Shown: positions 31,171 to 50,848 of the stretch, piece after piece
Numbering within the stretch: position 1 is the first letter of the stretch
How the letters are laid out: every line of letters begins with the position of its first letter
Assembly: GCA_001792895.1 (NCBI GenBank)
Contig: MARA01000006.1
Coordinates: 434,001 to 498,000 of the forward strand
Source: Lentinus brumalis
Taxonomy: Eukaryota > Basidiomycota > Agaricomycetes > Polyporales > Polyporaceae
Length of the DNA: 64,000 nucleotides
Reading direction: 5' to 3'
Translations under genes and position numbers: made by a program
Notes under the pieces: generated by a model
Databases searched by the model: none
Told to the model about the DNA's origin: nothing
What the model saw: only the letters and a program-made list of their open reading frames with translations

Positions 31171-31336
31171 CTATCATCACTGCGTCCAGACTGACTTTCA
31201 GTATCGTGACCGCGGTCCCATACTTGTCGAGAGTACTTTACTTACCATCCAATGGGCCTGTACTCATACGTAGTGCGTGCGGTCCGGTAATGCGTAAACT
31301 CGCTTATCACGCAGCCTGCTCAGTTCAAAACGAGGT
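31171..31336 (+). repeat. Left copy of a 166-bp identical direct repeat
   Basis: Starts CTATCATCACTGCG and ends TTCAAAACGAGGT. A second copy in the same orientation, identical base for base in my comparison, lies at 50683-50848. Sequence outside both copies differs. The two copies bracket the Rep/helicase-containing block. Confidence 0.93.
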
Positions 31337-31337
31337 T

Positions 31338-31356
31338 CCGATTCCACTGGAATCGG
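31338..31356. repeat. Terminal hairpin / left terminal inverted repeat
   Basis: CCGATTCC-ACT-GGAATCGG, a perfect 8-bp hairpin. Its first 12 bases are repeated inverted at 50661-50672. Confidence 0.7.
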
Positions 31357-32543
31357 CTTATCATCTCTTTGAATCCTGCGCAGTCACGTGCCCCTGAATC
31401 ATGTACCCGGCGCGCTCCGTGTTCTCTTTCCGGTTTTATCCGAGTCTCGGCGACACATCAACCGACGACGCGTCGGTCATGTGACTTTGTTTATCGACTG
31501 GTAGACGCGCGCAACGCCACAACCGCGTATGTACAAATACTCACCTCGTACTGTCGCTTCCACCCAGTGGCCAGGCTGCGCTGAGTACCCTTGACGGACG
31601 CCTGTGTCGATGCCTCGTATAGAAGGTGGGTGTGTAATGGTAAGGAGTTTATATCAATCCCCTGGACGTTGTCTTCCTTGCTGCTTGTCGTGTACATGGT
31701 GGCAGACCTACGCGGAGATGCTGCGTATTGTGTTTCCTGCGGTGTCGAGAGGCGTAATGCTTACCTTAGTAAAGACGGCGTTCTCTCCTCGCCCGACACG
31801 TCCGCTGCTCTCCTCTTTCTTAGCCTCTCCGCCGCGTCCTGCTTGTCGGCGTGTCCTCGCCCGACACGTCCGCTGCTCTCCTCTTTCTTAGCCTCTCCGC
31901 CGCGTCCTGCTTGTTGGCGGAGGGTTTCCTGTTGTTGCGGCGGAGATCCTTCGACATCTCAAGCTTGACGCGGCATGGTGTGTCGAGGGCAAGAGCCAGC
32001 GCAAGTAAGATGCGTGCGTGAAACCGGTTTCCATGTTTAGAGAACCGGAATATCATTGTCACATGATCCCCTGGGTACCCGGTCTCTTCCGGGGTTCCGT
32101 TTTGTCCCGTCACGGCGTCTTGGGCGTCCTGTCCTGCAAACTTCCTTCGCCAGCTTCGCACTCATAAGTACTCTCTATTCTGCTATCATCTACCTCCGTT
32201 GCTCGCCATTTCGCTCGTCCCTCTCTCGCCCTCCAGCTGCCCTCCTTCATCCCAACTACGACGACGCCTTGCCAGGTACATGTTACTATCTTTCCGGCGC
32301 TGTCCATGCTCTGCTGACCTCCCGTGACCCGTCCTCTCCCTGAAGGTCGCACCTCGTCTCTGTGCAGTGCCGATTGCACTCGCATTCATCGCGTGGCCGC
32401 CTTCATCACTACTCCCGTCGTCCTCTGCCGTATTGGTGCAGCCCGCGTTGTGCTTCAGGTATGTTACTCCTCGTTACTCCCTCGCCGCCCTTCTTACCTG
32501 CTCAGAAGATCACTTCATATCCTGCACGCCCCCTGTGACCTTA
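31357..32543. other. Non-coding 5' region of the element with a 68-bp tandem duplication
   Basis: The sequence from TCCTCGCCCGACACG at 31786 is repeated at 31854 (period 68 bp, second copy to about 31918, one C/T difference). The remainder has no supported gene and presumably carries the promoter of the Rep/helicase gene. Confidence 0.6.
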
Positions 32544-35500
32544 ATGGCTCGTGAAAGGGCCCAAGCGTTACGTGAGTGACCTCTGCATTCTCCTATCTCC
32601 CTTTGCTCACTATGCTTCACAGCATGGGCCACGGAGGCTGACCTCCTCCAGTGGTCCGCCCTTTGCGGCACCAAGCCAGTCGATCGGCCCTTTCGTGCCC
32701 GTCTCGTTCGTTGTTGCTTGCAGGGGGATGCCGAGGAAGCGTGTGCGTGTGACTTATCGTTATTCGCGATTCGTCCACCGCTTGTGTTCGCTGCCCGTTA
32801 TGCTACTGTGGACATTCTATCCACTATCCTTCGCATGCATGGCATCCCCCTCAGCCGTTCTTGTCGTACCCGCCCGCAAATGCTGGCGGCGGTCGTTGCC
32901 CATACGTGCATTGCGTCGTGTTCGTCGATCTCGTACCTGTTTTCCGTCCTGCCCGTACCTGCTCCTTTGCACAGTCCTGTTGAACTCAGCACGTCCGAGA
33001 ACTCCGCGTCTGCGGCAACCCCTACCCCGGTACAGTTCCCGCCTGTTCCTCTCAGCGACAGACAGCAGTCTTCCATTGTGAAGGAATGGTGTGACGGTAT
33101 CAGTGCTATGTCGCTTTCCGAAGCACCATGTGCTATTTGCGCCCGTTTGACACTCACCAAGGACCTCGAGGCAGTCTCTGATGCCGACCTCGATCTTTCC
33201 TCTCTAGAGCGGCCCGGCGAGGGCGTTACTCGAAAAGAACGTCTGTCTCCCTCCGATCCCGTCTCCGAATTAACAGGTCCGATCCTTTATGACCCTGCCG
33301 TTCGTATCATTGACGGTCACCGCCATTTCTCCGCTTGCGCACCGTGTCTTAATGTCGTGCGCAGACACAAGCTTCCGAAGTATGCACTGGCTAATGGCAG
33401 ATGGATTGGAGAATGCCCCCCTCAGCTTCAAGGGCTCACCTATGTCGAGCAGCTTTTAATCGCTCGTCAGCGTCACAGTTTCTGTGTCGCCCAGGTCTCT
33501 TCTGGCCAGCGCTTTCTGGCAGCAAACGTGATAGTATTTGGCCAACCCGTGCCTCGATTGCTCGACGCCCTACCTCCGCCAAAGAAAGAAATAGAGGAGT
33601 GTTTGGCGATCCTTTTCGTGGGATCTGCGAAACCTACTGATGAGGATATTCGCCGGACTCCTTTCCTTGTCCGCCCTCCTATTGTACTCGGTGCGCTGGA
33701 ATGGTTGCAGCTCAACTCCATCGAATATGACGGCGTTCGGATTTCTCACGAGAACCTCGCCACATATACGGATGGTGAGCCTCCTGTCGGGATCATCTAT
33801 CGTCGCACCTCCACATCCGCTCCTGACGAATCCCTGGCCGTGTATGAGTCTATCAACGAGCGTACTACAGATGAAGGCGAGTGTCTCTTCACCGTGCATG
33901 GTTTGAGTAGCGCGGAGTTCGTGAATATGACATATGAGGCAAAGCTGACTGCTGCCATCCGGCATTTCGACAGCGGCGGTCACGTTCTCGCTTACGGACA
34001 TGAACACACTCCTCAGAGCATCTATCACAACCCTGCCCTTTTCCCCGCGATGTTCCCTTGGCTATACCCATACGGGCTGGGCGGTTTTGGGAATCAACGA
34101 ATGTCCGTTTGCCTGCGCAAAACTCCTCAGGTCCGTGCTAAGCTTTTGTATGCAGACCGCCGCTTCCAAACGGACCGCTGCTTTCCCTTCATCGTCTTCA
34201 ATCACGATCAAATCCGTTCTAGTGCACAAGGCGGCTATCTACTCACTGCGCGGAAGAATTTCGAGCACGTCGCTGACAAGATTCTTGCGCTTGACCGCAA
34301 CGCTCTCGATTCCCTCATTGAGCGCAGCAGACTCAGTACATACGTCACACCAGAGACAGATGCAGAGCGGGCGTGCTTTGAACTCATGACCTTTGTAGAT
34401 CATGTTGCAGGTCACGTACAAGGCTCGCATACAGCGCGCAAGTATCAGCGGAACGAAATCAAGAGTCTCATATATGCCATTGGCGTGCCCGTGTTTTTCA
34501 TCACGTTCGCGCCTGCCGACTTCAAGAACCCTCTCTGTCTCCATTACTGCGGCGAAGACATCGACTTGCTACGGCCCGCACCGCCTCTTCCGGGTAGCAA
34601 TGACCGCCTCCGCGCCATCGCAAGAAACCCCATAGGGGCCGCTCGTTTCTTTCACAAGGTGGTCAGTTTGTTCACTTGCACCATCCTGAAGGCGGACACT
34701 GACGAGCCTGGGCTTTTTGGCCCTACAGAGGCGTACTACGGCACTGTCGAAGAGCAGGGCCGTAAGACTCTCCACCTCCATACCTTACTCTGGATCAAAC
34801 AGTCGCTGTCCCCACAACAGATCAGGGATCGTATACTCGCCGATTCGTGCTTCGAAGAAGCTCTGCTTACTTGGCTAGAACAGTGTCACACCGGAGATTA
34901 CCTACAGGAGACTGGCGAGCAGCTCTCCGACAGGTTGGAGGAACGTTACGTCAAACAGAACGAAGACGGAGACATGGTCCCCAGTGTCCGTATTCGACCA
35001 GGTCTGCGAGACCCCGTAGTCGAGCTACCAGTGCCCCCCCTGAGGATCCAGATCAGTACGCCTCTTGGGATTCTCATTTTCGTGTAGATGTTGATGAAAT
35101 TTTGTTCCGTTCGAATAGACACGACCCATACCACGGTAAAGGTTGTTGGAAAGGAGACAATACCAAGGGATACTGCAAAGCCCGCTTTCCCCGCGACGCG
35201 ATGCCATGTACCGAAGTAGACAGGTCTACTGGCGCGATCCGCTTCGCCAAGTCAGACCAGTGGATCAACACCTTCAACCCGTACTTATCCTACGTTCTGC
35301 GGTGTAATTCAGACGTTACTTGCTTGTTGTCCGGCACGCAGGTCAAAGCAGTAGTTGCTTATGTCACAGACTACGTCACGAAATCCACTTTGAACACCAA
35401 CACGTTCTTCCAAACCGTTCGCGCGGTCCTTGATAAGAACACAGAAATCCTTGTTCCCGGAGAACGCGACAAAGAGTACGCGGCCCGGTCCCTGATTGTC

Positions 35501-38500
35501 AAGATCGTCAACGCTCTTACTTCTGGTTCTGAGATCGGAGGGCCGTCTGTTTGCAGTCATCTGCTGGGCTTCTCTGACCACTACACTAATCGTACGTTCA
35601 AAGTCTTCTACTGGTACTCATACATCCAAACTGTGATGCGCACAGACTTCGAGGACGTCAACAACGCGCCACCAGAACCCGAAGGCGAAGAGCGCGTGGT
35701 GCTTGGATATACTTCGCGCGGAGTTGTGCAGCTCAACCGGGTCAATGACTACATCTACCGGCCGACCTATTTCGCACGCTGGTCATTGTATGACTTCCTG
35801 CGTCGCACCGATGTACGAAAGCTCCGCAAGAAAGATGCCGAAAATGCCAGTACACCGGCTGAAGTCTGCCTCGATGAGGTAGAGGTTGCAGATGGGGATG
35901 ACCTTGTCAATGATGATGATATTGATGACCTGCATGATCTCGACAGTGCAGCCGGTTCCGATAATGACGACGACGACGATGACGCTCCTCCTCCACCGTC
36001 CGGCCAAGCCTATCGGTTCACGTCAGGTCATCCCTTGCGTGGAACTCACGGCGTTTATCTCCGGCCACAGTCGAAATCGTACGTCCTAAACTTCGTCGGA
36101 AAGTCGTTGCCCCGCCCAGACAGGGGAGACCGCGAGGAGTATTGTAGAGTCATGATGACACTTTTCTGTCCCACTGGTTGGCGAGCGGGCACAGATCTGC
36201 ATCGTCAAGGCGAAGCATGGAGTGCAGCATTCGAGCGCACTTCCTTCCACTCTGAACATGAGACCGTCATGCGCAACATGAACCTCTTGTATGAGTGCCT
36301 AGACGCGAGAGACGATTTCTCCGCTCAGCGGCGTGCTGCAGGTTATTCATCTGCTTACGGTGATCAGAGATTTGGTGCAGGCTCTCACACTGGGTCCTCA
36401 GATCAACTACCCTTCATGCCAGACGAGGATGAATACGAACATACCGAGACCTCCCTCGTCGACTTGCTCGTCGAGGGCGCAATAGGAAAGCGATCCGCGA
36501 AAATCAACTTCCAGATGGACGCCATGCGTTCGCTATTGCACTGTGGCGAGCCCCAAGCCTCTTCACCGTCTCGCCCTGTAGTACCATGTCCTGCCGTCAA
36601 TGTCTCAAAATCTCCAATGGAATGGAAAGCGCTGCTTGCAGCTGCTCGTCAAGCCATCATGAAAGAAAGGCAAGGTATATTACCAACCACAGCCACTCCT
36701 TCGCCCTATCCTACTGACTCAGTGCGCGTACCTCCGTGGGCGAGCGTCGTACAGGTGATCAGCGCAGAAGCCCTCGCGTCTCTACGGGCTCAACATGTCG
36801 ACATCAGTCGCGGGCCACAAGACCCTCATCTGCTCCTGTTGCACAACGTGATAGAGCGCTATACTCTGAACACCGAACAATGTCGGGCTTTTCAACTCAT
36901 TGCGAGGCATCTTCACCACCACGAGGCACAGCCGTTGCGCATGTATCTTGGGGGCATGGGCGGTACGGGCAAGTCTCGAGTACTTCTCGCGGTTATGGAC
37001 TTCTTGAAGGCGCGTAATGAAGCGCACCGCTTTATAGTTCTTGGTCCCACCGGAAGCAGCGCATCCCTTATTGGCGGTTCTACTTATCATTCAATCCTCG
37101 GTCTCTCGCTCCCATCGGACAAGAAAGTTTCCGGTCTCACCTCGCTCGAGAAACTGCGTAGCCGACTGCTCCGTGTCGACCTGATCTTCATAGACGAAGT
37201 GTCTATGATATCTTGTCTGGATGTGTTCCATATCAATTCGCGTCTGTCTAAAGCATTTCCCGACACTGGCCACACCTTCGGAGGCAAGAGCGTCATTCTA
37301 GCCGGTGATTTCGCGCAGCTTCCTCCTCCAGGTCCCCGTTCGCCTGCGCTGTACAGCCACACAGTCGGAGAATGGTCAAGGGCATCGTCTCAATTCGCTC
37401 AGCGTTGCGCGATGGGTAAGGCTCTCTGGCACCAATTCACAGTCGTTGTTATCCTCAGACAGAACATGCGCCAGAACGGGCTCTCAGAAGAAGACGTTAA
37501 ATTCCGTCGCGCCCTAGAGAATATGCGCTTCGGGCGTTGCACTAAGGACGACGTAGCGCTTCTCCTCACCAGAGTCCATGATCCTTTGAAGGGAGGCAAC
37601 GAGCTGTACACGGATCGTTTCCGAGAAGTGCCCATCATTACCGCTTTCAACGCGTATCGAGACGCCATCAACGCTGATCGTGTCCGCGAGTACGCCCGTG
37701 CACGGAACCTGCCACTCGTCAGCTTCTACTCTCACGATCTCTGGGGCAAGAACAAAGACGGGTCTTCCATCCGGCAGGCACAGAAGGCCTACAATGCCGT
37801 CGTAGACCCTGTTCGACAAAGTAACATCATCGCTCCTCGCATACAAGAGGCTCTGTGGGGAATACCTGCCACTCTTACCGAGCATCATGCAGGTATACTG
37901 CAGCTATGCGTTGGCATGCCTGTTATCCTCAAGTACAACGAAGCTACGGAACTGTGCGCGACCAATGGTGCGCAGGCGCGTGTAGTCAAATGGGAGGCTC
38001 ATCGTATGCCCTGTGGTAAGTTAACTTTGGATACTCTGTTTGTTGAGTTGACAAACCCCCCTCGACCTGTACAACTGCCTGGCTTACCTCCGAATGTGAT
38101 ACCTCTTACGAAGACCAAGAAGACGGTACGCTGCATTTTACCTGCTGACGACATCGCCGTTCAAGTGCAGCGTGAGCAGGTCATGGTGTTGCCGAACTTT
38201 GCGGTGACAGATTTCGCATGCCAAGGACAGACTCGCGACAACAATGTCTGCCATTTGAAGTACTGTAAGAACCACCAATCAATCTATACATGTCTCTCAC
38301 GGAGCTCCTCCCTCGCAGGCACTCTGATTCTCGACACATTTGACACGGCCAAGATTACCAGTGGCACTTCAAGCTCTCTCCGGCGGGAATACCGAGAACT
38401 GGAGGTATTGGACTACATCACTACGGCCTCGCTCTCGGGCACTCTCCCATCCCATGTTCACGGGAACTCTCGTGCCGCGCTCCTGACGTCCTTCCGTGCA

Positions 38501-39664
38501 TGGAAGGGTGCTCGGTTTGTGCCTCCCCTGGTCCATCCTGCCCTGGACTGGTCCGAGGCGCCTGAACAAGAGCTGACGCTCTCTGTAGACTTGACTGCAG
38601 CGCTGCCTAAAGACGGAAAACAGCAGGACGCCGCCCCGGCCCGCGGTATCAAACGTCCCGGAGAGAATTGGGCCCCGTCAAGAGCACCGAAAAGGAAGAA
38701 CCCGCAGGCGGTGCGCGATAGAGCCCCCTATGAGGTACAAGAGACAGCCCCGGCTAGTGCTTGCGGCGTATCGCACCTCGATGGAACTAACACCGAGCTT
38801 TCCCATGACTCGCATGCTGTCTCACCGCGCATAGGCCTTATCTGGGACCGCTCGAACTGGAGCTGCGGATATGACGCGGTCTTGACCATCCTATGGAATC
38901 TCTATGAAGATCTAGGCGATTCCTGGCTCGCTGGCGTCGCTCCTGGAAATGCCTTACTATCTCTCATGCGCCTACATTTCCCCACCGCACGCGGTAATCC
39001 CGCCGCCCTGGACCTTTGCCGAGATCTCATTCGGGATATCCTGTACGCAACTTCCCCACAGACCTATCCACGGCATGGACAGCGCAAAGTCTCCGCTGCT
39101 GAGATCTTCTATCTACTGCTCACGTGTCCGACTCCCTACTCCCATGCTACTTCAACATGCTTGTCGTGCGCACTAGTGAACAGTGATCCACCTCGCATGT
39201 CAGACTCGTACGTGTGGATCCTCGGTGATGTCTTGTACCGGGAACACTTCCCCGACCGCTCAACTATTTCCACTCAAGAGTACGTCGATGCCTTACTCAA
39301 CTACGGCTATTCCTGTCTCTGTCCAAATTGTGGCGCAAGGTCCTCGACCGTCACGACCTTACATACCCCACCGCCGCTCCTTGTCCTGGAGTCCCTAGCT
39401 TCTGCGACCCTCTTACCAGATGATGAGATTCGCATACTCATTGCTGACCGTGTCTTCACCTGGCGTTTGACAGGCGCAGTCTACTTTGGTTGGGCGCATT
39501 TCACTTCACGCTACATCGATCCTGCTGGCTCTTGCTGGTTCCACGACGGTGCGGTGACCGGACGTCACTGCATCCCGGATTCCGCATCCATCCATCAGCC
39601 TTCGTCGATCGTCTCCTCACGATCCTCCCTTGCCTCGCACTACGTTTACGTGCTAGTCCAGTAA
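32544..39664 (+). CDS. Helitron-type Rep/helicase fused to a USP-like cysteine protease domain; one frameshift
   Basis: Exon 1 is 32544-32571 (MARERAQAL) and exon 2 starts at 32623 in matching phase. The Rep part has the two-His motif of HUH nucleases (LHLHTLLW, about 34768-34785) and a two-Tyr motif (YVTDYVTK, about 35355-35378), for rolling-circle cutting and joining. The Pif1/RecD-type helicase has Walker A GMGGTGKS (36953-36976), IDEVSMIS, AGDFAQLPP and a late QGQTRDN motif. After a basic linker, the last 280 residues contain NWSCGYDAVLTIL (Cys codon 38864-38866) and YFGWAHFTSRY...WFHDG (His codon 39497-39499), resembling the Cys and His boxes of ubiquitin-specific proteases. In the C7 run at 35034-35040 the frame shifts by -1; eight Cs would give one continuous protein of about 2350 residues. 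An Asp-rich stretch lies near 35960. Confidence 0.9.
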
Positions 39665-39853
39665 GGAGAAGCGCACGATCGACGGACTACTCCACTCTTC
39701 CCACTCTAACCTTCCAGAAGCCCGGGCCGCTAGCAACTTGTATACCTACGTCTTGAGCTGGGCCACCAAGCTCAGCCCATCGTACGTACCTTTCTCTCTT
39801 CTCACTATCCAACCACAACTAACATAGCTCTCATCCTCCCAAAGACTATCACG

Positions 39854-40312
39854 ATGGACAACATCGCTGCCAATAACGACATCGGTCCTATCGCTGAATT
39901 CCAGTACGAGTCCATCACTGTGGACGCTCTCGACGGTCCCTTGCTTCCTACTGCAAGAATCTATATCAGCGACCCGCAGATGCAGCGCGAACTTGCTGAG
40001 ATATTATGGATGTCTGCCGGTCGCGAGCCCGTACGCCATCCCCATTCATGTATCGCTATCTACCTCGCTGACTCTGTCTTTCCGTTCCAGTTCAACATGC
40101 TCCTTACTTTCTCTACCCGCGAAATCCCTCGCAGGAACGACAACCAGCGTCCACCCTCCATCACCATACGAGTTCGCACCATGCCTAACTTCCGTCCGGG
40201 TCACCCGTACACCGCCTTTTGGGAGGTTGTCCGTCGATCAGTATCACGCCTCGTTGCGAACAACCTTGCTTCTATCATACAGTACGCGTTCCGAGAGACC
40301 CGCAACACCTAG
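39854..40312 (+). CDS. Small protein of unknown function downstream of the Rep/helicase
   Basis: A single exon of 152 residues begins 190 bp after the helicase stop on the same strand. Composition is protein-like, with an acidic N-terminus and a central segment FNMLLTFSTREIPRRNDNQRPPSITIRVR that alternates hydrophobic and polar residues like beta-strands. A C-terminal helix follows (VVRRSVSRLVANNLASIIQYAF). There is no signal peptide or membrane span. I do not recognise a family. Position and strand suggest it belongs with the mobile element. It converges with the minus-strand gene that ends at 40554. Confidence 0.65.
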   Translation: MDNIAANNDIGPIAEFQYESITVDALDGPLLPTARIYISDPQMQRELAEILWMSAGREPVRHPHSCIAIYLADSVFPFQFNMLLTFSTREIPRRNDNQRPPSITIRVRTMPNFRPGHPYTAFWEVVRRSVSRLVANNLASIIQYAFRETRNT

Positions 40313-40553
40313 CTCTACAGTATTCATTATGCCATAATATACGTTGTTCATTATCCTATGCTGTTCAAGAGTGCACCCTCACTTTGTCCGCCGAAGTGCA
40401 GAGACGCCGCCAAGATCTCACGACTCCCACGCGCTCTCTGCGACGTCGCGGTCATCATAGCGCGCGCTTGCTCCTTCGATCCACCATCACACTCGGTTGA
40501 CAATGACAAGATAATAGTCAACGTCGTCGCTGTTTTACAGCACTATTACATCT

Positions 40554-41780
40554 CTAGTGACATGCGCACCAGGCGACATGAACCTCCGCGTCCACTCTCT
40601 CCCCCTCCGGCCGCTTGCAAACGGACGAGCACGCTGTTCCCCCGAAAGTCCACTGCACGGAGGCAACAGTGTCGCCACCACGCCCGACGCATACACGCAG
40701 ACAACCTCCATCATTGAAGCTCCTTCCCATAATCGGGCAAACCCAGCTGAGTTTGCACGGCTTGGGCACACCGTGTGAGTCCACATCCCACTCGTCTGCA
40801 TGAGTCTGGAATACGAACCCCCTCCGCTGGTACTTCTCCAGCTCCGGAAGTTGCGTTCCTCTCGCCGGAAAGCTAGGATCCAACACGCGCTCCCACTGGA
40901 TCAGACCTCGCCCGTGCATAGTGAGTGACGGATACCCGACCACGATCCAGTCCGCAGTCGCGTAGTTGAACAAGAGTGTCGTCCAGCACGACGCAATGGG
41001 CCTCAGCACCGTGACGGCGTCCCAATCATCACCGATGCCGACGCCAATGACGTCCACTCGACGACGACCCAGCTCCAACTTAACGCGCTTCCCAATGCCA
41101 CTCAGGTAGTTCAAGTTGCCCTGCACGCACCCATTTGACGATGGGTACGTGTCCTCGTCACGGCGTACATACCCCTCCGCCGTCACGAAGTGTTGCACAA
41201 GGTCCTCGACCTTCGAGAGTGGCACGTAGAAGTCGTAATCTCCAACATCGTCGAAGATTGGGCACACCATCTGGAGTACCGCAGAACCCCCGAGCACCGC
41301 GTCGCACTGCCGCATGACATGGCGCAACGCGTCCACGTCAGAGACGACTCTACTTTTCGTAAGTATCATATACTTCGAGTGAACGCATATTCACTCACCT
41401 TCCGAACAGCGCACGATGACGGCGAGTCAAATCCGCGGTCGCAATCTTCCTCATCTCACGCGAGAGCTTCGACAAAGCCGTGATCGTAGTCGAAGGGCTC
41501 GCCTCCTTCACGACGCCCTGTAACACGCTGAGAGGGAGCACCGCTGCACATTGTCGTAAGCAAATATCATCGAAAGACAATCAATCACAACTCACGCTTG
41601 ATTTGCGACAGCTGGGAACGCGCAGATATCGCAGTGGACTGTTCCGGTTCCTGGACCACGTCGCGTACGACACTCAGTGGCTGCACGCCTGCACTTTCCC
41701 GTAAGCAAATCCCATCATATGACACTGAACATGAACTCACTCTTCATCGGGGACAACCAGGTCGTGCTCTGCCCCTTCAT
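40554..41780 (-). CDS. F-box-like / nucleotidyltransferase-fold protein, catalytic motifs retained
   Basis: Four exons on the minus strand (41780-41741, 41688-41596, 41543-41399, 41349-40554) give 357 residues with correct phases. Exons 2 and 3 encode related segments (VQPLSVVRDVVQE and PVLPLSVLQGVVKE) and end in an F-box-like helix pair (ITALSKLSREMRKIATADL). The core has the nucleotidyltransferase pattern: hydrophobic-GGS (AVLGGSA), then the carboxylate pair in DYDFYVP, and a third acidic strand RRVDVIGV. A conserved C-terminal block, CKLSWVCPIMGRSFNDGG, is followed by V-x-W and paired Cys. It is the first of three paralogues in the element and the only one keeping the DxD acids. Substrate is unknown. 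An SCF link through the F-box is inference. Confidence 0.75.
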
Positions 41781-42314
41781 TGAACGTCCCTTCCCATATC
41801 TCACCGACGCTGCTTCAATTTGCGCGAAAAATTATGCGGCCGTACCTGCGTCATCCAATAGACACCTCCGCTCAATTTGCATTCACTTGCATTCACTCAA
41901 ATTGTTCGCAAATCCACCGGGAGTATTCGCACATCGCCGGAGGTCCCCCTCCCCGACACTCCCGCCGTGTTCCGCCAGCGTCCACAGAGCCTCTCCAGAG
42001 ATCCGCGCCGCCGCAGGATCGACGGGAGCGGCTACACTTGAGAATGCCAGAAATTGAGCCCAGAGGCACCTCGGACTGCGGTCGGAGACGCACGTCCCCG
42101 AGTTGTAGTTGCTTATCAGTTGTACGGGAAATCTCTACCCCGATGGAAGCCCGTGTCCCTCCCTGCGCAAATTATAGCGATTGAGCTCCACACGGCGCCA
42201 TGCTAAGCACCTGCAACTTCCCGTGCAAATCGCACAACACCGAAAAAAAACCGCACATGACCTCCCCTCGCACGCTTAAGTCTAAGGTCGATCGTTTGGG
42301 CTAGCGTTAGCACC
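41781..42314. promoter_or_regulatory. Divergent intergenic region
   Basis: Lies between the divergently transcribed F-box/nucleotidyltransferase-like gene (minus) and the small-family gene starting at 42315 (plus). No further gene is supported. Confidence 0.45.
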
Positions 42315-43271
42315 ATGCCTCCGACCAGGACTACTCGGGCCAGGTATGCAACTCTGTTTGAGTTCCCGAACATCGCTGAGACCCCACATGTCATTCGAAG
42401 TTCTGAGCCTGCCGCCACGGACGGCTCATGCTCGCGCGTCCGCCACGCCAACCTGGAGATACGCACCACCTATCGCAAGGACTTACTCGTGCTACCTCGT
42501 AGCATTGCAAGCACAACCACCATGCGAGATGTGTTGTAAGTCGGTCATCTCCATTTGACCCCTCGTACGCTGACCATATCACTGCAGCAAGTTAGATGCT
42601 ATGGCACGGTTTATCGACCCGGTGGTAGGGATTTACTCCCTCGGTGCACTGCCCCCAAACGCCACTTGGGGGACAAGGCAGCGCGAACACCTCTTGTGCG
42701 TCGAGAACACCGAAGCCTCCATCTGGGTCATTGGCTGTCTCGCGGATGTTTCATACAGTATTAGTACGCGGCAAAAGCCATCGTTCTCGGTCAAGATTGA
42801 GCTGCTTCGCGAATGTGATCGCCTTCGGCTTGCGAGCCTCAATCGCCGGACGTCTCCCAAGTCGAGTGCGTACACTCTCAGTCTCTAAGTCTATGCCCAC
42901 AGCGACTCATCGCCTCTTAGAGGACCATCCACTTACTGAAGACATCCTAGTTGCCGAAGCTCACATTCCCGATACTCAATCTGTACGTATAGCACGCTCT
43001 AAACACTATGTTACTCATACGGAGCGGACAGGTCTTCCGCCACCTCTACGACGGTAGCGCAGGTTTCGACTTCCAACCAAACATGGGGCAACTCGGAGTC
43101 AACGAGTTTGTCCAGGGAGACATCGTCTTGGCAGAATGCAGCTTCGTCCGCAGCTCGCTCGATCGTTGGGCCACATGGTCCGTGAATTTCGAGCTCGCCG
43201 CGCTTACCCTGCTTCATCGTACGGCCCGGACCACTTGCGGCAGGAACAGCCGGTACCGCGGCGGCCTTTAG
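42315..43271 (+). CDS. Element-family protein 1 (unknown function)
   Basis: Four exons (42315-42535, 42588-42865, 42903-42982, 43032-43271) give 272 residues with consistent phases. The start is MPPTRTTRARYATLFEF. A middle block (SIWVIGCLADVSYSI...PSFSVKIELLRECDRLRLASL) looks like an alternating strand pattern followed by a charged helix. The C-terminal block is FVQGDIVLAECSFVRSS...WATWSVNFELAALTLL. The latter two blocks recur at equivalent places in the genes at 47295 and 49441, and the last one more weakly at 46822. No database family is known to me. All four copies sit within the direct-repeat-bracketed block, so a role in the element's replication or regulation is possible. Confidence 0.75.
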
Positions 43272-43377
43272 ATGACGACTCGCGCCTGCCTTGTCCATTA
43301 CAAGACCACTGTGTCGACGCCTTAATAGATTTGGTCTTCTTCACTGTCGACACACATTCAGAATTGTTCCTACAACC

Positions 43378-44370
43378 ATGTACCCGCCTCCGAACCACGC
43401 CAATACGTCTTTCATCCACGGCCTCCTCCCCGAGCTCACACGATCTGTCATGGAACTCCTCGACGGCGATGATATGGTCCGCCTCCGTCAGGTCAGCCGC
43501 ACAGCGGAGACGTACGTCGTGTCCACAATCCACATCCGTTCGCGTGCTATTTTCGCGAACGTCGTGCATGACTACGACCGCCTCGTTGACACCCTCGACT
43601 CCAACTACGCAGTCGTTGGCGGCGCCGGAGCTACATACATTCTGTTCCCCACCACAGCCCTCCCACATCACATCCACATTTACGTCGCCCATGACCAATA
43701 CCTCGATGTCGTCTGCTACCTCGAACGTACAGAAGGATTCAGAGCCAGACAGCTCGTCGCGAGTCTCCGCCCAGGAGAGACCTTCCCAGAAGCCGTCGCT
43801 AACATCATCCGTCTCACCAAGGGGCGTCTCACTATCGATGCAACTCAGAGCACCAATCGTTCGCCGCTGTACCCGATAACGTCCGCGTTGCACAGCGGGT
43901 ACTTCAACTACGTCTCTACGCGATCATACGGCTCGAGCTACCCATCTCTGACGCGCCAGAATCGCGCGCTTCTGAACCCATCCCGACTCGATAAATTCCT
44001 CGACATACCGGAAGAACACCGCGAAGAGTGCGAACGCTGGACCAAGCACGGCTGGACACTGCAGGTCGAATGGGAGAGTTGGGAGGAAGACGGTGTCTGC
44101 GCAGGAGTTGATTCGCTGGGGTGCCCGAGTGCGGTACGTGCCTTTGGTGACAGGTTCTCTTTCAGAGGTTCCTCCGCCCCTATCGCAGGCACAAACACAC
44201 GCAGCCTGGGGCCTATCGAGTCCGTCACCGCCGTCTGGTGGCGAGGAGGACATGTCTGCTCACCCGCCTGCCACAGCGGCCAGCCGCTCATCACCCTGGT
44301 GCCCGAATTTGCTTACGTCAGATTGTCCGCTAGTTCTTACTCAGTTTGTCCCTGTACTGTACCATATTGA
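43378..44370 (+). CDS. F-box-like / degenerate nucleotidyltransferase-fold protein, paralogue 2
   Basis: A single exon of 330 residues begins 106 bp after the preceding gene on the same strand. The N-terminus LLPELTRSVMELLDGDDMVRLRQVSR is F-box-like. The core keeps the fold motif (YAVVGGAGATYIL), but the expected acidic pair is replaced by His (HHIHIYVA). The third strand reads RLTIDATQ. A C-terminal segment with V-x-W and spaced Cys (AVWWRGGHVCSPAC) matches the other two paralogues. Loss of the acids predicts no catalysis, so it may act only in binding. I chose the ATG at 43378 because the F-box begins soon after it. Confidence 0.7.
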   Translation: MYPPPNHANTSFIHGLLPELTRSVMELLDGDDMVRLRQVSRTAETYVVSTIHIRSRAIFANVVHDYDRLVDTLDSNYAVVGGAGATYILFPTTALPHHIHIYVAHDQYLDVVCYLERTEGFRARQLVASLRPGETFPEAVANIIRLTKGRLTIDATQSTNRSPLYPITSALHSGYFNYVSTRSYGSSYPSLTRQNRALLNPSRLDKFLDIPEEHREECERWTKHGWTLQVEWESWEEDGVCAGVDSLGCPSAVRAFGDRFSFRGSSAPIAGTNTRSLGPIESVTAVWWRGGHVCSPACHSGQPLITLVPEFAYVRLSASSYSVCPCTVPY

Positions 44371-44613
44371 CGATAAGCACACTCTGCATCGCATCCATCG
44401 CCAAGGTGCTCTCTTCCCTTTCGTGGACTGGTTCGCATCAGTGGTTAAGCTCGACACTTACGCCGATCTGTAGTAGCCCTCCGCGCCGTTCCTGTGACTC
44501 CGTAGCACCGACACGGCATGGACACTTCATTCTGGGGGTTCTCCCCGTGTACGATGTACATACAGTACATTCGCAATCCGTCCTGGTCCTCAACACTCCC
44601 CTGCTCGCCCATC

Positions 44614-45510
44614 ATGCACAAACACCTTCCACTCCGACTACAACTCCGTATCTGCCGACTCTTACCCCTCCGCACCATCCTCACCCTGCGCTTGTGCTCA
44701 CACGAGTATCTCGACCTAGTCGTGAAGTCACTGCACGACACCTTGTTCGACATCGTCCAACCCTTCCTCCCACATGCCGAGCTCTTCATCGACAACTTGA
44801 ATGCCGTGCACGCGTTTCTGGGTGGCGATGGGGCTCTCGGATTCCTCCTTCGAGAGGAACACATCGTAGTGAACGCGCTCGAGGTATACGTCCGTTACCA
44901 CGACTGGAAGAGGCTCCTCCATCACCTTACATTCGCGCAAGGAGCGTACATCGTACCCTGTCCCATTCCAAGCCCCCGCGCGTCGACGTCATGGCTGCCC
45001 TTGCACGGCACGTCGAGCGTCATCACCATGCGCACGACCAAAGGCGACCTCCACATCTACCGTACGCTATCCTACCAGGACGATCCACTCACTCCGATCG
45101 CGCGCTCTCCCTCCACCATTCACACCTCCTACGTCAACGGCCTCTACTTCGGCACAGGGTATCCTGCGCTCTTGTTCCAACATAAGGCACTTCTCAGCGA
45201 CGGGGATCCCGACGACATCGACTACACGCAACTCTACATCAGCCGTGGCTTCGACATCCGACTCAGCGCCCGAGCCTGGCCTGAGTTCCGTCACATCAAT
45301 CATCCCTGCCCCGCACATAAGTGGGCGTGCACAGCGCAAGCGCGAAGCTTCAGCGATGGTGGCTCGCTCGCTTGCCGGCATGACCCCCTTGCGCACCCAC
45401 AACTACGCACCACCGTCGTATGGAGATTGGACTATCGCCCGTGTGGAGGTCAGTGCCTCATGGATGGACTCGGAGTGCTTCAGGACTGGCAGTTATACGA
45501 CTCGTTGTGA
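44614..45510 (+). CDS. F-box-like / degenerate nucleotidyltransferase-fold protein, paralogue 3
   Basis: A single exon of 298 residues. An in-frame ATG at 44518 would add 32 residues that look less conserved. The start MHKHLPLRLQLRICRLLPLR is F-box-like. The core reads VHAFLGGDGALGFLL, followed by NALEVYVRYHDW, where only one acid of the usual pair remains. The C-terminus has the shared block CPAHKWACTAQARSFSDGG and VVWRLDYRPCGGQC. It is tandem to paralogue 2 (gap 243 bp), so the pair probably arose by duplication. Function is unknown and catalysis is unlikely. Confidence 0.7.
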   Translation: MHKHLPLRLQLRICRLLPLRTILTLRLCSHEYLDLVVKSLHDTLFDIVQPFLPHAELFIDNLNAVHAFLGGDGALGFLLREEHIVVNALEVYVRYHDWKRLLHHLTFAQGAYIVPCPIPSPRASTSWLPLHGTSSVITMRTTKGDLHIYRTLSYQDDPLTPIARSPSTIHTSYVNGLYFGTGYPALLFQHKALLSDGDPDDIDYTQLYISRGFDIRLSARAWPEFRHINHPCPAHKWACTAQARSFSDGGSLACRHDPLAHPQLRTTVVWRLDYRPCGGQCLMDGLGVLQDWQLYDSL

Positions 45511-45671
45511 TGTACCGCTCGGTAATAAATGACTCTCCCTTCAACTCATCCCTTCGGCTCATCGTAACAATCAATCTCCGTACAATCTACACATACACTC
45601 ATATGAGAAGCTATAACACCATGACAGTCGATTCGGTGATCGGACACATCTCTACATACTACACCAATACA

Positions 45672-46822
45672 TCACGTCTCCATAGCGTCCCCCTCAGCAA
45701 CTGGCGTCCCCGCCACCTCGAAGCCAGTCTCATACTCGACTGTAGACTCCGTAACGTCATCGCTATTGCCGACAGGGCCATACAGCTGAGCGGCGAGTGT
45801 CTGTGAAAAACTGTCAGCATCGACATCGTACAAGGAACGCATGTGGCTGCATACCTTCATACGCGCAGCCGGCTGAAGTCGCACGACATGCAAAGGGGCG
45901 AAGATCACCTCAGTGCGTCTACCTGCGCGAGTACGCATCGTCACTGCCTCCACAGAGACAGCAACGTCGACAAGATCGCCCGTCTTGATCTTCAACGGGG
46001 TCATGCGGGTCAACACGCCCAGCTCGTCTGCCTCGCTTGCCGCAACTCTCCGGTCAACCCTCCACATGTGCTTCATCCGGGCCACTCGCTGGGCAGGATC
46101 CTCCGCGCGCGTCAGAACCACACCACCCTCAGAGTCTCCGGTCGAGTGCGTCACCTAGCAGCAAAAGTGCAAAGTCAACAACCTCGCTTGGCGCGCTCAC
46201 ACTGACCGAGACACCACTCACCTTGGAGAAAACACGGCGCTTGAGAACAAGACAACCTTTGCCGTCCACCTTTTCCAGACCAGGACGGCCCAGAAGACGG
46301 AGTACGGTCTCCCTAATATTCTCTACAGCACGAAGCTGTGGCCCGAAGGCATCCGAGAAGTGCGTACCGACCAGCGTCAACAGCTGCATCGCTTTAGGCG
46401 CTCCTTCCACCTGTCTGCATACCGCGCTTCAGCACTTGCTCTGGACGACTTCACGACTGAAACAAACGTGTAACTCACCCGTTCCAATCACCCAGCGGTC
46501 CCAAGCTCACAGATTCCACAATCCCTTGGAGACGTACAACCAGTGGCAAGCGCCTCCCCTCTGAGATATCAGGATGCACCCACACAGTCGTACTGTTTCC
46601 CGAACCTGCGTCAACGCATAGCCAGCCGAACATCTCGTCCGCTGTCACAGGGACCACACGACGAACGGGCAGCGTAGTTGCGTCGTCAACATCGGACGCG
46701 ATGCGACCAGTCCCTTCCGGCCAAAGGTCGCGAGCAAGAACGGTGGAGGTAGCTGACCCGATACTAAGTAAGCAATAGCCAGCAGCGAGGAGCCTCAGCC
46801 ACGTACCGGATACGAAGGCCAT
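45672..46822 (-). CDS. Element-family protein 2 (unknown function, divergent member)
   Basis: Five exons on the minus strand (46822-46807, 46752-46479, 46414-46222, 46154-45855, 45800-45672) give 303 residues with consistent phases. Recognisable segments are LPVRRVVPVTADEMFGWL, QLLTLVGTHFSDAFGPQLRAVENIRETVLRL and a C-terminal block FKT-like LKIKTGDLVDVAVSVEAVTM...EVIFAPLHVVRL, which aligns with the GD-hydrophobic-V and F-x-L block of family members 1, 3 and 4. The middle part differs, so membership is tentative. A TATA-like TTATAAGG lies about 50 bp upstream. It is divergent from member 3. Confidence 0.65.
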
Positions 46823-47294
46823 ATGAGCACAAGAGTCCAAACAGCGCACTTGCACCAGCCCGAACGCAGCTCCTTATAAGGAGCGCGCCTCCTTCCACCT
46901 CGGGGAGCGGTAGCCAGTATCCGACCGCAAATCAACACCGCAGACGGCGCACGGACCTCCTGCCGAAGCAAGATTTTTCCAGCAATTCTACTGCAATGAC
47001 TCGAGACGCTCCACGACGAGATTGTCCCGGAAGTACGAACACCGCACGTTCCCGACCTCCGACAGCTGAAGACCTCTTTTTGGCTTGTTCCAGACCCGCA
47101 GACCGATTCCGACGCCGGACACAAGCCTCTCCCGCAGTTTTGCAGCAAAAAAAAATTGGACGGGTGCCCGCAAATCCTCAGTGCTCCGCCCTATAAATGC
47201 AAGATCTCCAGCGACGTCTTCGCCCACCTCGTCGCACACGCACAAACCCGCTCCTCTCCTCAACACCGTCCTTCGCCAACACTTCCTGCACTCA
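46823..47294. promoter_or_regulatory. Divergent promoter between element-family genes 2 and 3
   Basis: TTATAAGG at about 46873-46880 points to the minus-strand gene. TATAAAT at 47192-47198 lies about 100 bp before the plus-strand ATG. The layout suggests a compact bidirectional promoter. Confidence 0.5.
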
Positions 47295-49190
47295 ATGCCG
47301 CCGCGACCCGGCTCACCGATCAGCGAACGTGTTCGTAAACGCCGCCGGTACGTCACCGATCGCCAGACTCTCCGTGCTTACTGACTTTCGGCCTCCACAG
47401 CAATGCGACAGCCGATGACGAAGGAGAAAACCCCGCCACGGACAAAGCCGCAGCCGCCGAACTGTAAGCCCCCGGCTCTCGTCCCTCTTCCACGCTAAAG
47501 TATACTTCCAGGGCAGGAGACGTCCACAGCGCGACACCGCCTTCCACTCCTCCTCCCTTCGACGGTGACCTATCCCCGGCCCCTTCGACGCCCTCGACCG
47601 TGACCGATGGCAGCACTGTGTCGACGCCGCAGGAGAGCCCTGCAGAAGCTCCTGTGATCGTCGACAACGACCGGGAACACCGCAACATCTTAACCGCTCC
47701 AAACATGTTGAAGCTCGTCGTCGGCACGTCGAAGAACACGACAGTGCTGAAGGAGGCGCCAGGTGAGTTCACCAACTCACCCTCCCTATTCGCTTGTCTG
47801 ACTAACAAACACTACTTGGTGTCGCAGCTACTTCACCCACCGCGTCTGCTATTGAAGTGCCCGCAGCCCTCAGCCCCTCCCCCATCATCGTAGCCGCGTC
47901 CGCCGCAAATGCAGCGGTCGCGAACGGAGGTACGCCTGCGATATCTTCCGCCACGACTGCCTCCACTGTCGAGACCGTCGGGCCGGTTGTGTCAGCCCAC
48001 GGCGCGACCTTCGTCGCTCCAGCCACTGAAGTTCGCGACGCCACGGTGACAGCGGCCGCGACCAGTGCATCGCCGCCCGACCCCATCCCGACACCGCAGC
48101 AGCAACTCGCGGCTCTCGCGACGGCACAGCAACCTCAAGCGTTCGCGGTGCCTCCTCCGCCGCAGCAACCTTTGGTTCCCAATGGAGCGCCCCTCGTACA
48201 GCCCCAGCCCCAGCAGCTTGCGCCGCAGCCTCAAGTATTCGCGATGCCTGCTCCTCCTCCACAGCAAGCTTTGGTTCCTATCGGTGCACCACCGACTGGT
48301 CCCGCAGCAACGGCGCAGACGCAGGCCCTTCCGCTTGCACAACCCCAGCCCCAGCTGCCGGCGCCTGTACCACCGCTGCATGTGCCTATCACCGCGCCCG
48401 TGCCACAAATCCTGCCCGGATTTCAAGACGTACCCGCACCTATTCAAGCGTAAGTCATCACCGTAAACGAGCGCCGCTTCGCTGTCTCATAACATCCGCT
48501 GACTGAACACATCCCTCAGACTCGCCATGCAGATAACCACGACGTCGATTCCGGCTGAACACACGTACAGTGTTACAAGGCTTCCCGCACGTCTCGACTG
48601 GGGACGAGGCCGTATGGAAAGACGCCTATGCGAGACACCGAGCACGAGCACCTACATGCGCTTCACGGGACGCGTCCGAACTAGTTGGTTCTTCGATCGC
48701 TCCGGCACGCCTCAGAGCCGCGTCAATGTGGGTGTCCACGCGCTCGTCGACGCAGATGAAGCAGCTATCGAGAAACTGTACCAAATGGCGAAGCCTCCCA
48801 CCAGTAAGTCGCGATTGCCATACCGTATTGATCTTTACTGACAAAGTGCCTAGGCATACCGGAGCTGATATTTGCCAGTCGTCTCCAAGGACAGCGCCAG
48901 CGCGGCAGCTTCGCTGAGACGGTACGTTCGAGCGTCGTTGAACTCATCACCGGCCGAACTGACTCTCGATCACGTAGGTTGTGCCCTTCAAAAATGTCTT
49001 CGACGCTCGCGACGGAGTGCTCGCGAAGACCGAGGACCGCCGTATAAACGCGGTGGACTTCACAGACAACGACATCATTGCGATCGACGCAGAGTTCACG
49101 CGCTGGAGGAAAGCGCGTGCAAACAACTGGTCCACGTTCGATGTCGGCTTCGAACTGACCGCCATCTATCTCCTTTGGGTCTCGAACTAA
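47295..49190 (+). CDS. Element-family protein 3 with long Pro/Gln-rich region
   Basis: Seven exons (47295-47347, 47401-47463, 47512-47762, 47828-48449, 48520-48803, 48854-48921, 48978-49190) give 517 residues with every phase correct. A basic start (MPPRPGSPISERVRKRRR) may be a nuclear localisation signal. A 300-residue disordered region rich in Ala, Thr, Pro and Gln follows, with an imperfect repeat of about 33 residues (QPQAFAVPPPPQQPLVPNGAP and QPQVFAMPAPPPQQALVPIGAP). The conserved part begins near STYMRFTGRVRTSWFF and includes SRVNVGVHALVDADEAAIEKLYQ. It ends FTDNDIIAIDAEFTRW...STFDVGFELTAIYLL. The conserved blocks align with members 1 and 4. Function is unknown. Confidence 0.8.
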
Positions 49191-49440
49191 CCAAAAAGGC
49201 GTAGATTCACGCCCCTCGAGCTTAGAGTTCTATTAGACATCGCTCTTCATTTCAGTGCCTGCGTCTGTACTTAGACTCCATTCCATGATTACCTTAGATA
49301 TTCAATAAAAGCCATAAGCGTCTTAGCAGCACACACCAAACACACTGCGTCATCCACTCCGATCACACAAGGTTGCGCTATGTTAGCTATGTACAGCAAC
49401 CCACGTCTCTATTGCAATCCTCTGTCATCGTTCCCACCGC

Positions 49441-50603
49441 ATGGCAGACGTCGAACACACTCCGCCCTCACGCGTCTCACGAGAGGTACAAACGATGAGC
49501 AGCACCACGGCATCGAAGTCCAGGTGCGTAAGCGTAGCAGAGGTTGTCACACATCGCTACTGACCATTCTCCCAGCAGCCAAACGTGCAATAACGACAGC
49601 GTCGGGGGTCGGGAAGAGGACGACACAACGTCCTTGCCTGAAACACCTCGGAAACGCCCTCGGTAAGTGACATCGCTAGCACCGACAGAACGCGTAAACG
49701 AGCCCATTGTCAGTTCTGAGCGAGATGTGCCCAAAACTCCCCGAACGCCCCGTACAGCGGATAATTCACCCGTCTCACTGCACTGGCAATCGCCGACGGG
49801 GCCCAAGGTCATCCACATAAATACCAACGACTACCAAGCTCGCTCAACCGACATTGTCATAGAACCATGGGTCTCGCCCCGAACCACAGCGTACGTAGGA
49901 TGACGAGCTGCGAAGTGCTTACTAACTCACATGTTCCGGTTCAGGTACCTATACAAGTTCATCAACTACTACAACGAGGAAGACACCCGGTTTCCTATCC
50001 ATCGCGTGCCCCCCATCCTCCGCTGGGCAGTCGTCGACGAGAATCCGCGCTACATGCATCTCACTCACATCAACCGACCCCTCTTGATCTGGGTAGTCGC
50101 AAGCCTCGTCGATGCATCATTGGTCGTGACTCGAAACTTCCCAGCTCCTCGCCTGCGTGTTGTTGTTGACTTCGTACGGGAAACAGACCGCGAGGCAGCG
50201 ATAGCGCTGTACAACAAGGCAGCGTCGACGCCTATCTCGCGCATGGAAACCTTCATCGCCCTCGCACCAACGTGCGACAACGAAGGCGCACAGGTACCGT
50301 GACATCCCTGATTCACCATATACACACTCTCATCTGCGACCACAGGCTCACGAGGAGATATACGACGCGAAGGAGAAGTTCGAAGACAAAGCGAAGATGA
50401 ACAGAGTATCCCAAGCTAAGTTATACTCAGGAGACCTTGTCCTTGTCGAGTGCACGCTGCTCGTAGTCGAGGGAGAGAGAGCGGGTACGAAGTCAGTCTC
50501 ATGGATGCTAAACGCTCTGTACTGGCTCGCAGAAAAGCCGAAAGCTACGAAGTCGCTCGCACTATACAAAGAGCCCACCTTCCCCCATGTATTTACTTTA
50601 TAA
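49441..50603 (+). CDS. Element-family protein 4 (unknown function)
   Basis: Five exons (49441-49523, 49579-49662, 49714-49890, 49945-50293, 50346-50603) give 316 residues with consistent phases. After a polar, Ser/Thr-rich N-terminus comes VPPILRWAVVDENPRYMHLTHINRPLLIW and RLRVVVDFVRETDREAAIALYN. The C-terminal block is YSGDLVLVECTLLVVEG...KSVSWMLNALYWL. These align with family members 1 and 3. It is the last gene before the right terminal inverted repeat (50661) and the right direct repeat (50683), which supports its being part of the element. I do not recognise a fold; a small beta-barrel is conceivable but unproven. Confidence 0.78.
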
Positions 50604-50660
50604 ACATCGCTGCATCTCGAATGCAACCGCCGGCCAAACGAGGCCGACACCATGAGTCAT

Positions 50661-50672
50661 CAGTGGAATCGG
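50661..50672. repeat. Right terminal inverted repeat (12 bp)
   Basis: CAGTGGAATCGG is the exact reverse complement of CCGATTCCACTG at 31338-31349. Confidence 0.65.
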
Positions 50673-50682
50673 GCCGGGCGCG

Positions 50683-50848
50683 CTATCATCACTGCGTCCA
50701 GACTGACTTTCAGTATCGTGACCGCGGTCCCATACTTGTCGAGAGTACTTTACTTACCATCCAATGGGCCTGTACTCATACGTAGTGCGTGCGGTCCGGT
50801 AATGCGTAAACTCGCTTATCACGCAGCCTGCTCAGTTCAAAACGAGGT
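50683..50848 (+). repeat. Right copy of the 166-bp identical direct repeat
   Basis: Same orientation as, and identical to, 31171-31336. The shared sequence stops abruptly on both sides. Confidence 0.93.

Follow-up and report, generated by a model that had tools for sequence, protein, structure and literature searches.

A giant Helitron2-type element of Lentinus brumalis with a 166-bp flanking duplication that probably stems from an aberrant insertion

Helitrons are described as lacking target duplications, consistent with insertion in single-stranded form (PMC5148889). Which process could place such an element between two identical direct repeats of 166 bp? The question is raised by a locus in a stretch of 64,000 nucleotides from Lentinus brumalis (assembly GCA_001792895.1, contig MARA01000006.1, positions 434,001 to 498,000; hereafter the window, to which all positions refer). 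A preliminary description had seen the block 31171-50848 as a Helitron-type mobile unit with inverted ends and accessory genes of its own. For the repeats it had proposed a new terminal organisation, such as a class with long terminal direct repeats, or the integration of a circle.

Extent, ends and class of the element

The locus holds a Helitron2-type rolling-circle transposon of 19,347 bp (31337-50683). The block is indeed a Helitron-type mobile one that inserted as a unit, with its inverted ends and accessory genes. As limits of the element, 31337-50683 fits better than 31171-50848. The features of the borders are as follows.

31171..31336, + strand: left copy of the 166-bp target segment, ending ...GAGGT at the 5' joint of the element; two genome matches, both here
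31337..50683, + strand: Helitron2-type element as delimited by the family ends; its last base, C at 50683, is common to element and target repeat
31338..31356, + strand: 5' palindromic end CCGATTCCACTGGAATCGG, including the 12-bp inverted repeat (31338-31349); hairpin z -5.8
31358..31367, + strand: 5' subterminal box TTATCATCTC, kept in 9 of 10 aligned five-prime ends
50661..50672, + strand: 3' copy of the 12-bp inverted repeat, an exact match to the 5' copy
50673..50683, + strand: 3' tip stump, halting after GGGCGCGC; other paired copies extend about 23 nt further
50683..50848, + strand: right copy of the 166-bp target segment, followed by the remaining target AGATGATG...

Family copies were collected by searching the genome with both ends of the block and with end patterns, a search suggested in the preliminary description. 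Nine elements could be paired end to end, namely the window copy and eight relatives, of which five are shorter than 500 bp (C56, C47, C82, C60, C1), one measures about 2.7 kb (C63) and two about 18 kb (C24, C51); all statements on family regularity refer to these nine elements of one genome. In all nine the 5' end is palindromic, TCCGAT(T/A)CCACTGGAATCGG, and preceded by T. The joint T|TCCGAT is found in 8 of 8 relatives; the search pattern itself included the preceding T but tolerated mismatches. At the 3' side the eight relatives read GTGGAATCGG(G/A)CCGGGCG(C/T)GCG(A/T)AGC(G/A)GCGC...CCCCAAG, followed by T. Twelve 3' ends other than that of the window (the eight paired copies and four without a paired 5' end, among them C100) comprise ten of the form CCCCAAG|T, one of the form CCCTCAAG|T and a divergent one (C100). 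The relatives keep the 12-bp inverted repeat, although C1, C60 and C63 have just 10 bp of it.

In the window copy this inverted repeat is perfect, as first described (CCGATTCCACTG at 31338-31349, CAGTGGAATCGG at 50661-50672), and is placed asymmetrically, 1 nt inside the 5' end and 10 nt ahead of the right 166-bp copy. The 5' joint, GAGGT|TCCGATT, is normal for the family. The 3' end is cut after the first arm of the terminal palindrome, so that the second arm is missing and about 23 nt of the tip are lost; the sequence reads CAGTGGAATCGGGCCGGGCGCGC and then enters the 166-bp copy, with a single base, C, common to element and target at the joint (1 bp). Folding against shuffled sequence gave z -5.8 for the 5' end of the window copy, and z 0.05 and 1.01 for the 3' tips of two relatives. 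Since these two tips fold no better than shuffled sequence, the 3' hairpin of the family rests on its visible palindrome.

Two further repeats were observed. Between the 5' end and the Rep gene lies a 66-bp tandem duplication (31786-31919, 98% identical), part of which resembles C50:323923-323982 at 89%. The sequence CCGCC(A/G)GTTCCGATTCCA recurs at eight places (C35, C44, C49, C60, C69, C75, C82) and may mark where a different Helitron family, related in its 5' end, terminates.

The asymmetric inverted repeat, the 5' palindrome, the palindrome near the 3' end and insertion beside T match the published description of Helitron2 (PMC5148889; PMC4067079). The inverted repeat is terminal at the 5' side and subterminal at the 3' side, and insertion beside T, with T on the 3' side, characterises all eight paired relatives; in the window copy a T precedes the 5' end, and the duplication takes the place of the T on the 3' side. 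Rep and PIF1-type helicase domains, the mark of the Helitron superfamily, lie above cut-off in two ORFs (PF14214, 2e-27; PF05970, 9e-21), in agreement with the Rep/helicase noted earlier. The superfamily also lacks target duplications; here the window copy departs with its 166 bp, and 8 of 8 other paired copies show none. Helitron1 features (3' CTRR, insertion between A and T) are absent, the paired copies ending CAAG|T and lying behind T. The AP-type endonuclease of Helentron RepHel proteins gave no Pfam match at E <= 0.1 in the 1487-aa ORF. Named protein relatives come from Lentinus, Cerioporus, Polyporus, Trametes, Grifola and other Agaricomycetes.

Origin of the 166-bp repeat

Both 166-bp copies are indeed identical and stop abruptly (31171-31336 and 50683-50848), and the bases beyond them differ on both sides. 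In the 53.4-Mb assembly the sequence has 2 matches, both at this locus, and the 1 kb to its left matches itself and only one other stretch, at 69%; hence a dispersed repeat is ruled out. Long terminal repeats borne by the element are likewise ruled out, the similarity among family copies stopping at the element border. When 1.5 kb from each side of every paired element were compared, the window gave 165 bp at 100% and the eight others gave nothing at E 0.01, in a comparison that is blind to repeats shorter than about a dozen bases. Among the nine paired elements, loss of the 3' tip and a flanking duplication are both confined to the window copy. Neither the suggested new terminal organisation nor a class with long terminal direct repeats thus finds support: the 166 bp are unique chromosomal DNA, 0 of 8 other end-to-end copies carry a flanking duplication of detectable length (about a dozen bases or more), and the 3' tip of the window copy is lost. 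As this copy also lacks the last 23 nt or so of the family 3' end, the duplication goes with the abnormal joint.

The target reads ...C-TATCATCAC...GAGGT^AGATGATG..., with the insertion point at GAGGT^AGATG, and 165-166 bp of the target upstream of the 5' joint recur at the 3' side of the element. The repeat is most simply read as a one-off target duplication tied to the aberrant 3' end and produced by a staggered break, fill-in and joining through 1 bp of homology. We consider it probable that a giant Helitron2-type element underwent a single aberrant insertion at GAGGT^AGATG, accompanied by such a break, end-joining and fill-in. Rep would have joined the 5' end of the element to the nicked target strand in the usual way, and would have neither cut nor joined the 3' end. 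The opposite target strand would have broken about 166 bp upstream, and host end-joining would have linked the broken 3' tip of the element to this upstream break through 1 bp (C) of homology. Fill-in of both sides would then duplicate the 166 bp, the whole product arising in one event. The staggered break and fill-in are inferred from one single event, and the break of the second strand must be assumed, because insertion without target duplication is the single-stranded mode described for Helitrons (PMC5148889). Helraiser, a Helitron of bats, needs its left end but can do without its right one, and insertions of it that are truncated at the 3' side do arise (PMC4778049). A good 5' joint next to a failed 3' joint is therefore what may be expected when insertion goes wrong.

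Two observations count against the aberrant insertion. The 3' tips of the two folded relatives, as noted above, show no excess stability over shuffled sequence. The 166-bp segment opens with TATCATC and is directly followed by AGATGAT; both are 7-mers of the box TTATCATCTC, in direct orientation at one border and inverted at the other, which would not be predicted from plain end-joining. A strict match of both borders occurs at 2 of 23,867 positions of flanking DNA outside the site (two offsets of one place) and a looser one at 29, in a test chosen post hoc, after the pattern had been noticed, and on ATC-rich sequence. Neither ATCATC nor GATGAT occurs at the joints of the other eight paired insertion sites. 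These 7-mers could represent microhomology, a pseudo-site for Rep, or chance.

A template switch after insertion we regard as unlikely. Here the element would have inserted normally, and a replication or repair fork passing through it later would have stalled at the 3' palindrome and switched to the homologous chromosome that lacks the element; resuming 166 bp upstream of the site, it would have copied the 166 bp and the right flank. The product would be exactly equal to that observed, the stop does fall within the GC-rich 3' palindrome, and TATCATC at the jump site resembles the 5' subterminal box of the element. However, two events are required instead of one, the joint itself has just 1 bp in common, and the identical repeats show no sign of two ages.

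Assemblies of dikaryotic fungi are often built from two haplotypes. A misjoining of haplotypes or repeats at 50683 was therefore weighed as well, and we judge it improbable. The reading frame of Rep is broken within a C7 run, which leaves room for local sequence errors, but there is no third copy of the 166-bp sequence, and both joints are precise to the base and interpretable (T|TCCG; a stop within the 3' palindrome).

Least probable of all, and very doubtful, is the circle of the preliminary description, composed of the element and a 166-bp flank and integrated by homologous recombination with a single chromosomal copy: two identical direct repeats would result, and joined-end amplicons are reported for FoHeli1 of Fusarium (PMC5148889), but the circle would already have to bear the 166 bp, obtainable from this very site alone as the sequence is found nowhere else in the assembly, the integration itself leaves the missing 3' tip unexplained, and the genome holds no head-to-tail end junction at 0 or 1 mismatch. 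Tandem head-to-tail Helitrons were rejected as a source (no hits at 0-1 mismatch, three at 2), the junction pattern with up to 3 mismatches giving 25 hits versus 13 for a reversed control.

Rep/helicase and accessory genes

The coding units of the element are listed below.

32835..35087, + strand: N-terminal part of Rep/helicase, with DUF6570 and Helitron_like_N (Rep) domains
35201..39664, + strand: remainder of Rep/helicase, with PIF1 helicase and a C-terminal region bearing a WSCGYDAVLT motif
39854..40312, + strand: accessory gene A (152 aa); pN/pS 0.23 over 75 codons
40554..41369, - strand: accessory gene B, paralogue of C and D; GGS...DYDFYV motif kept
42586..43280, + strand: accessory gene E, in blocks 42586-42879, 42923-42988 and 43032-43280
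43378..44370, + strand: accessory gene C (330 aa), in which the DYD motif of B is lost; nucleotidyltransferase-like fold, and at the N-terminus a weak F-box match below threshold
44518..45510, + strand: accessory gene D (330 aa), paralogue of B and C
45852..46756, - strand: accessory gene F, in blocks 46756-46469 and 46127-45852
48518..49247, + strand: accessory gene G, in conserved blocks
49787..50603, + strand: accessory gene H, in blocks 49787-49897, 49940-50296 and 50343-50603

The frame of Rep in the window changes in the C7 run at 35034-35040; either a genuine lesion or a mistake in sequencing could account for this. A relative protein of 2326 aa unites the DUF6570, Rep and helicase domains and also matches the C-terminal region, and the open frames around the Rep match reach 2128 aa in C49 and 1978 aa in C24; judged by these sequences, the two window ORFs appear to correspond to one gene in the relatives. 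In C51 the helicase part has at least two frame changes. For the C-terminal region of the helicase ORF (38651-39661) the protein search gave one relative. This region might be a cysteine protease, or a deubiquitinase of the herpes-tegument type such as is reported in animal Helitrons (PMC9741609). The idea remains a lead, since the structure model of this region (pLDDT 38) is unusable.

The copy in C49 has Rep and accessory matches, and its two ends were left unpaired. Its stretch C49:2142381-2142543 equals window 32050-32210 over 163 bp at 94%, amid nearby Rep DNA at just 74%, which suggests a recent exchange between the two copies. A second Rep lineage, 43-44% identical, gives near-equal scores at about a dozen places; four of its loci (C1:9460, C47:10009, C49:18092, C127:5013) lie less than 20 kb from a contig start, and the lineage may favour chromosome ends.

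Beyond Rep/helicase there are eight conserved coding units, 6 of 8 falling into two sets of three, much as the preliminary description had it with eight more genes, several of them paralogous. The triplet B, C and D has a nucleotidyltransferase-like fold, and a low-complexity stretch upstream of gene G (47857-48456) is weakly conserved. All eight units are collinear between the window and the C51 copy. In 15 of 15 tested blocks pN/pS lies between 0.12 and 0.30, the values for the accessory genes being 0.17-0.30, with synonymous sites near saturation and genes partly covered (75 codons of A, 112 of B). Block B of C51 has one stop, and the stops in E, F and H lie at or near block ends. On the strength of this collinearity and the low pN/pS, captured host genes were rejected. 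To judge from these comparisons, the eight genes are regular members of the element lineage under selection, not fresh captures.

Relatives of gene C were found within 30 kb of a Rep match at 25 of 39 kept loci, and at 21 of 35 without the four loci of the window element's own family. For these counts 39 of 78 gene-C matches and 69 of 84 Rep matches were kept, second pieces and nearby paralogues having been dropped by hand, and a few kept loci lie together with another in the same element. A sequence search of the PDB with gene C gave no match up to E 1. As a guess, the accessory genes help Rep or counter the host, and the nucleotidyltransferase-fold triplet may perhaps act as nucleic-acid-binding or ubiquitin-ligase-linked adaptors.

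More tentatively, we hypothesize a lineage of giant (18-19 kb) Helitron2 elements in Polyporales, possible rather than probable, that combines a fixed, co-inherited and self-contained module of eight genes with occasional breakage of both target strands through Rep. If this were true, the module would serve transposition or control of the host and would not be captured cargo, and the nucleotidyltransferase-fold triplet would be common to several diverged Rep lineages. Rep, directed by the box TTATCATCTC, would sometimes cut both strands of the target or cause them to break, with long duplications as a result. That diverged giant Helitrons within one genome keep an accessory set under selection speaks against chance capture as the source of extra Helitron genes and points to functions worth assaying. 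How a Helitron completes insertion at its 3' end is little understood, as the second joint of a normal insertion cannot be traced. The present locus, in which the 5' joint is normal, the 3' joint has failed and 166 bp are duplicated, offers a natural and testable footprint that separates the two steps of insertion.

Comparison with known systems

Among the listed matches to open-licence titles and abstract openings, none described a Helitron with a long target duplication or with this accessory set. Size alone is not new, since Helitrons up to about 14 kb in fungi and 39 kb in maize are on record (PMC6431247).

The FoHeli elements of Fusarium oxysporum, which belong to Helitron2, resemble the present family in their asymmetric inverted repeat (12 bp in FoHeli1 and 2), 5' hairpin, 3' repeat some tens of bases inside the end, insertion beside T (FoHeli1 and 2), Rep and helicase, and short non-autonomous copies (PMC5148889). 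They differ in end sequences and in size, about 5-11 kb as compared to 18-19 kb with eight conserved accessory genes; relative to the FoHeli elements as described there, the 166-bp target duplication and the lost 3' tip are features of the window copy. Helentrons and their relatives HINE and DINE-1 share palindromic subterminal inverted repeats, a 3' palindrome, T-rich insertion and short non-autonomous relatives, and a proto-Helentron of Phytophthora infestans, about 14 kb long, likewise has several extra proteins (PMC4067079); unlike Helentrons, the long ORF of the window has no AP-type endonuclease among its Pfam matches.

HELPO1 and HELPO2 of Pleurotus ostreatus are also basidiomycete elements with RepHel, of up to 13.7 kb, and HELPO1 has one to four extra genes (PMC4289320). 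They run from T[C/G] to CTRR (for HELPO2, CTTG) and insert at AT, and their genes are described as captured (PMC4289320), whereas the eight units of the window keep their order across diverged copies and evolve under purifying selection. Helraiser and Helibat share the need for a 5' end, the dispensable 3' end and the occurrence of truncated or new 3' ends, but have ends of the Helitron1 type, and their new 3' ends are described as joining the target directly, with no long duplication mentioned in that account (PMC4778049). Truncated 3' ends being already known from Helraiser (PMC4778049), the new part at the present locus, set against that account, is the 166-bp duplication.
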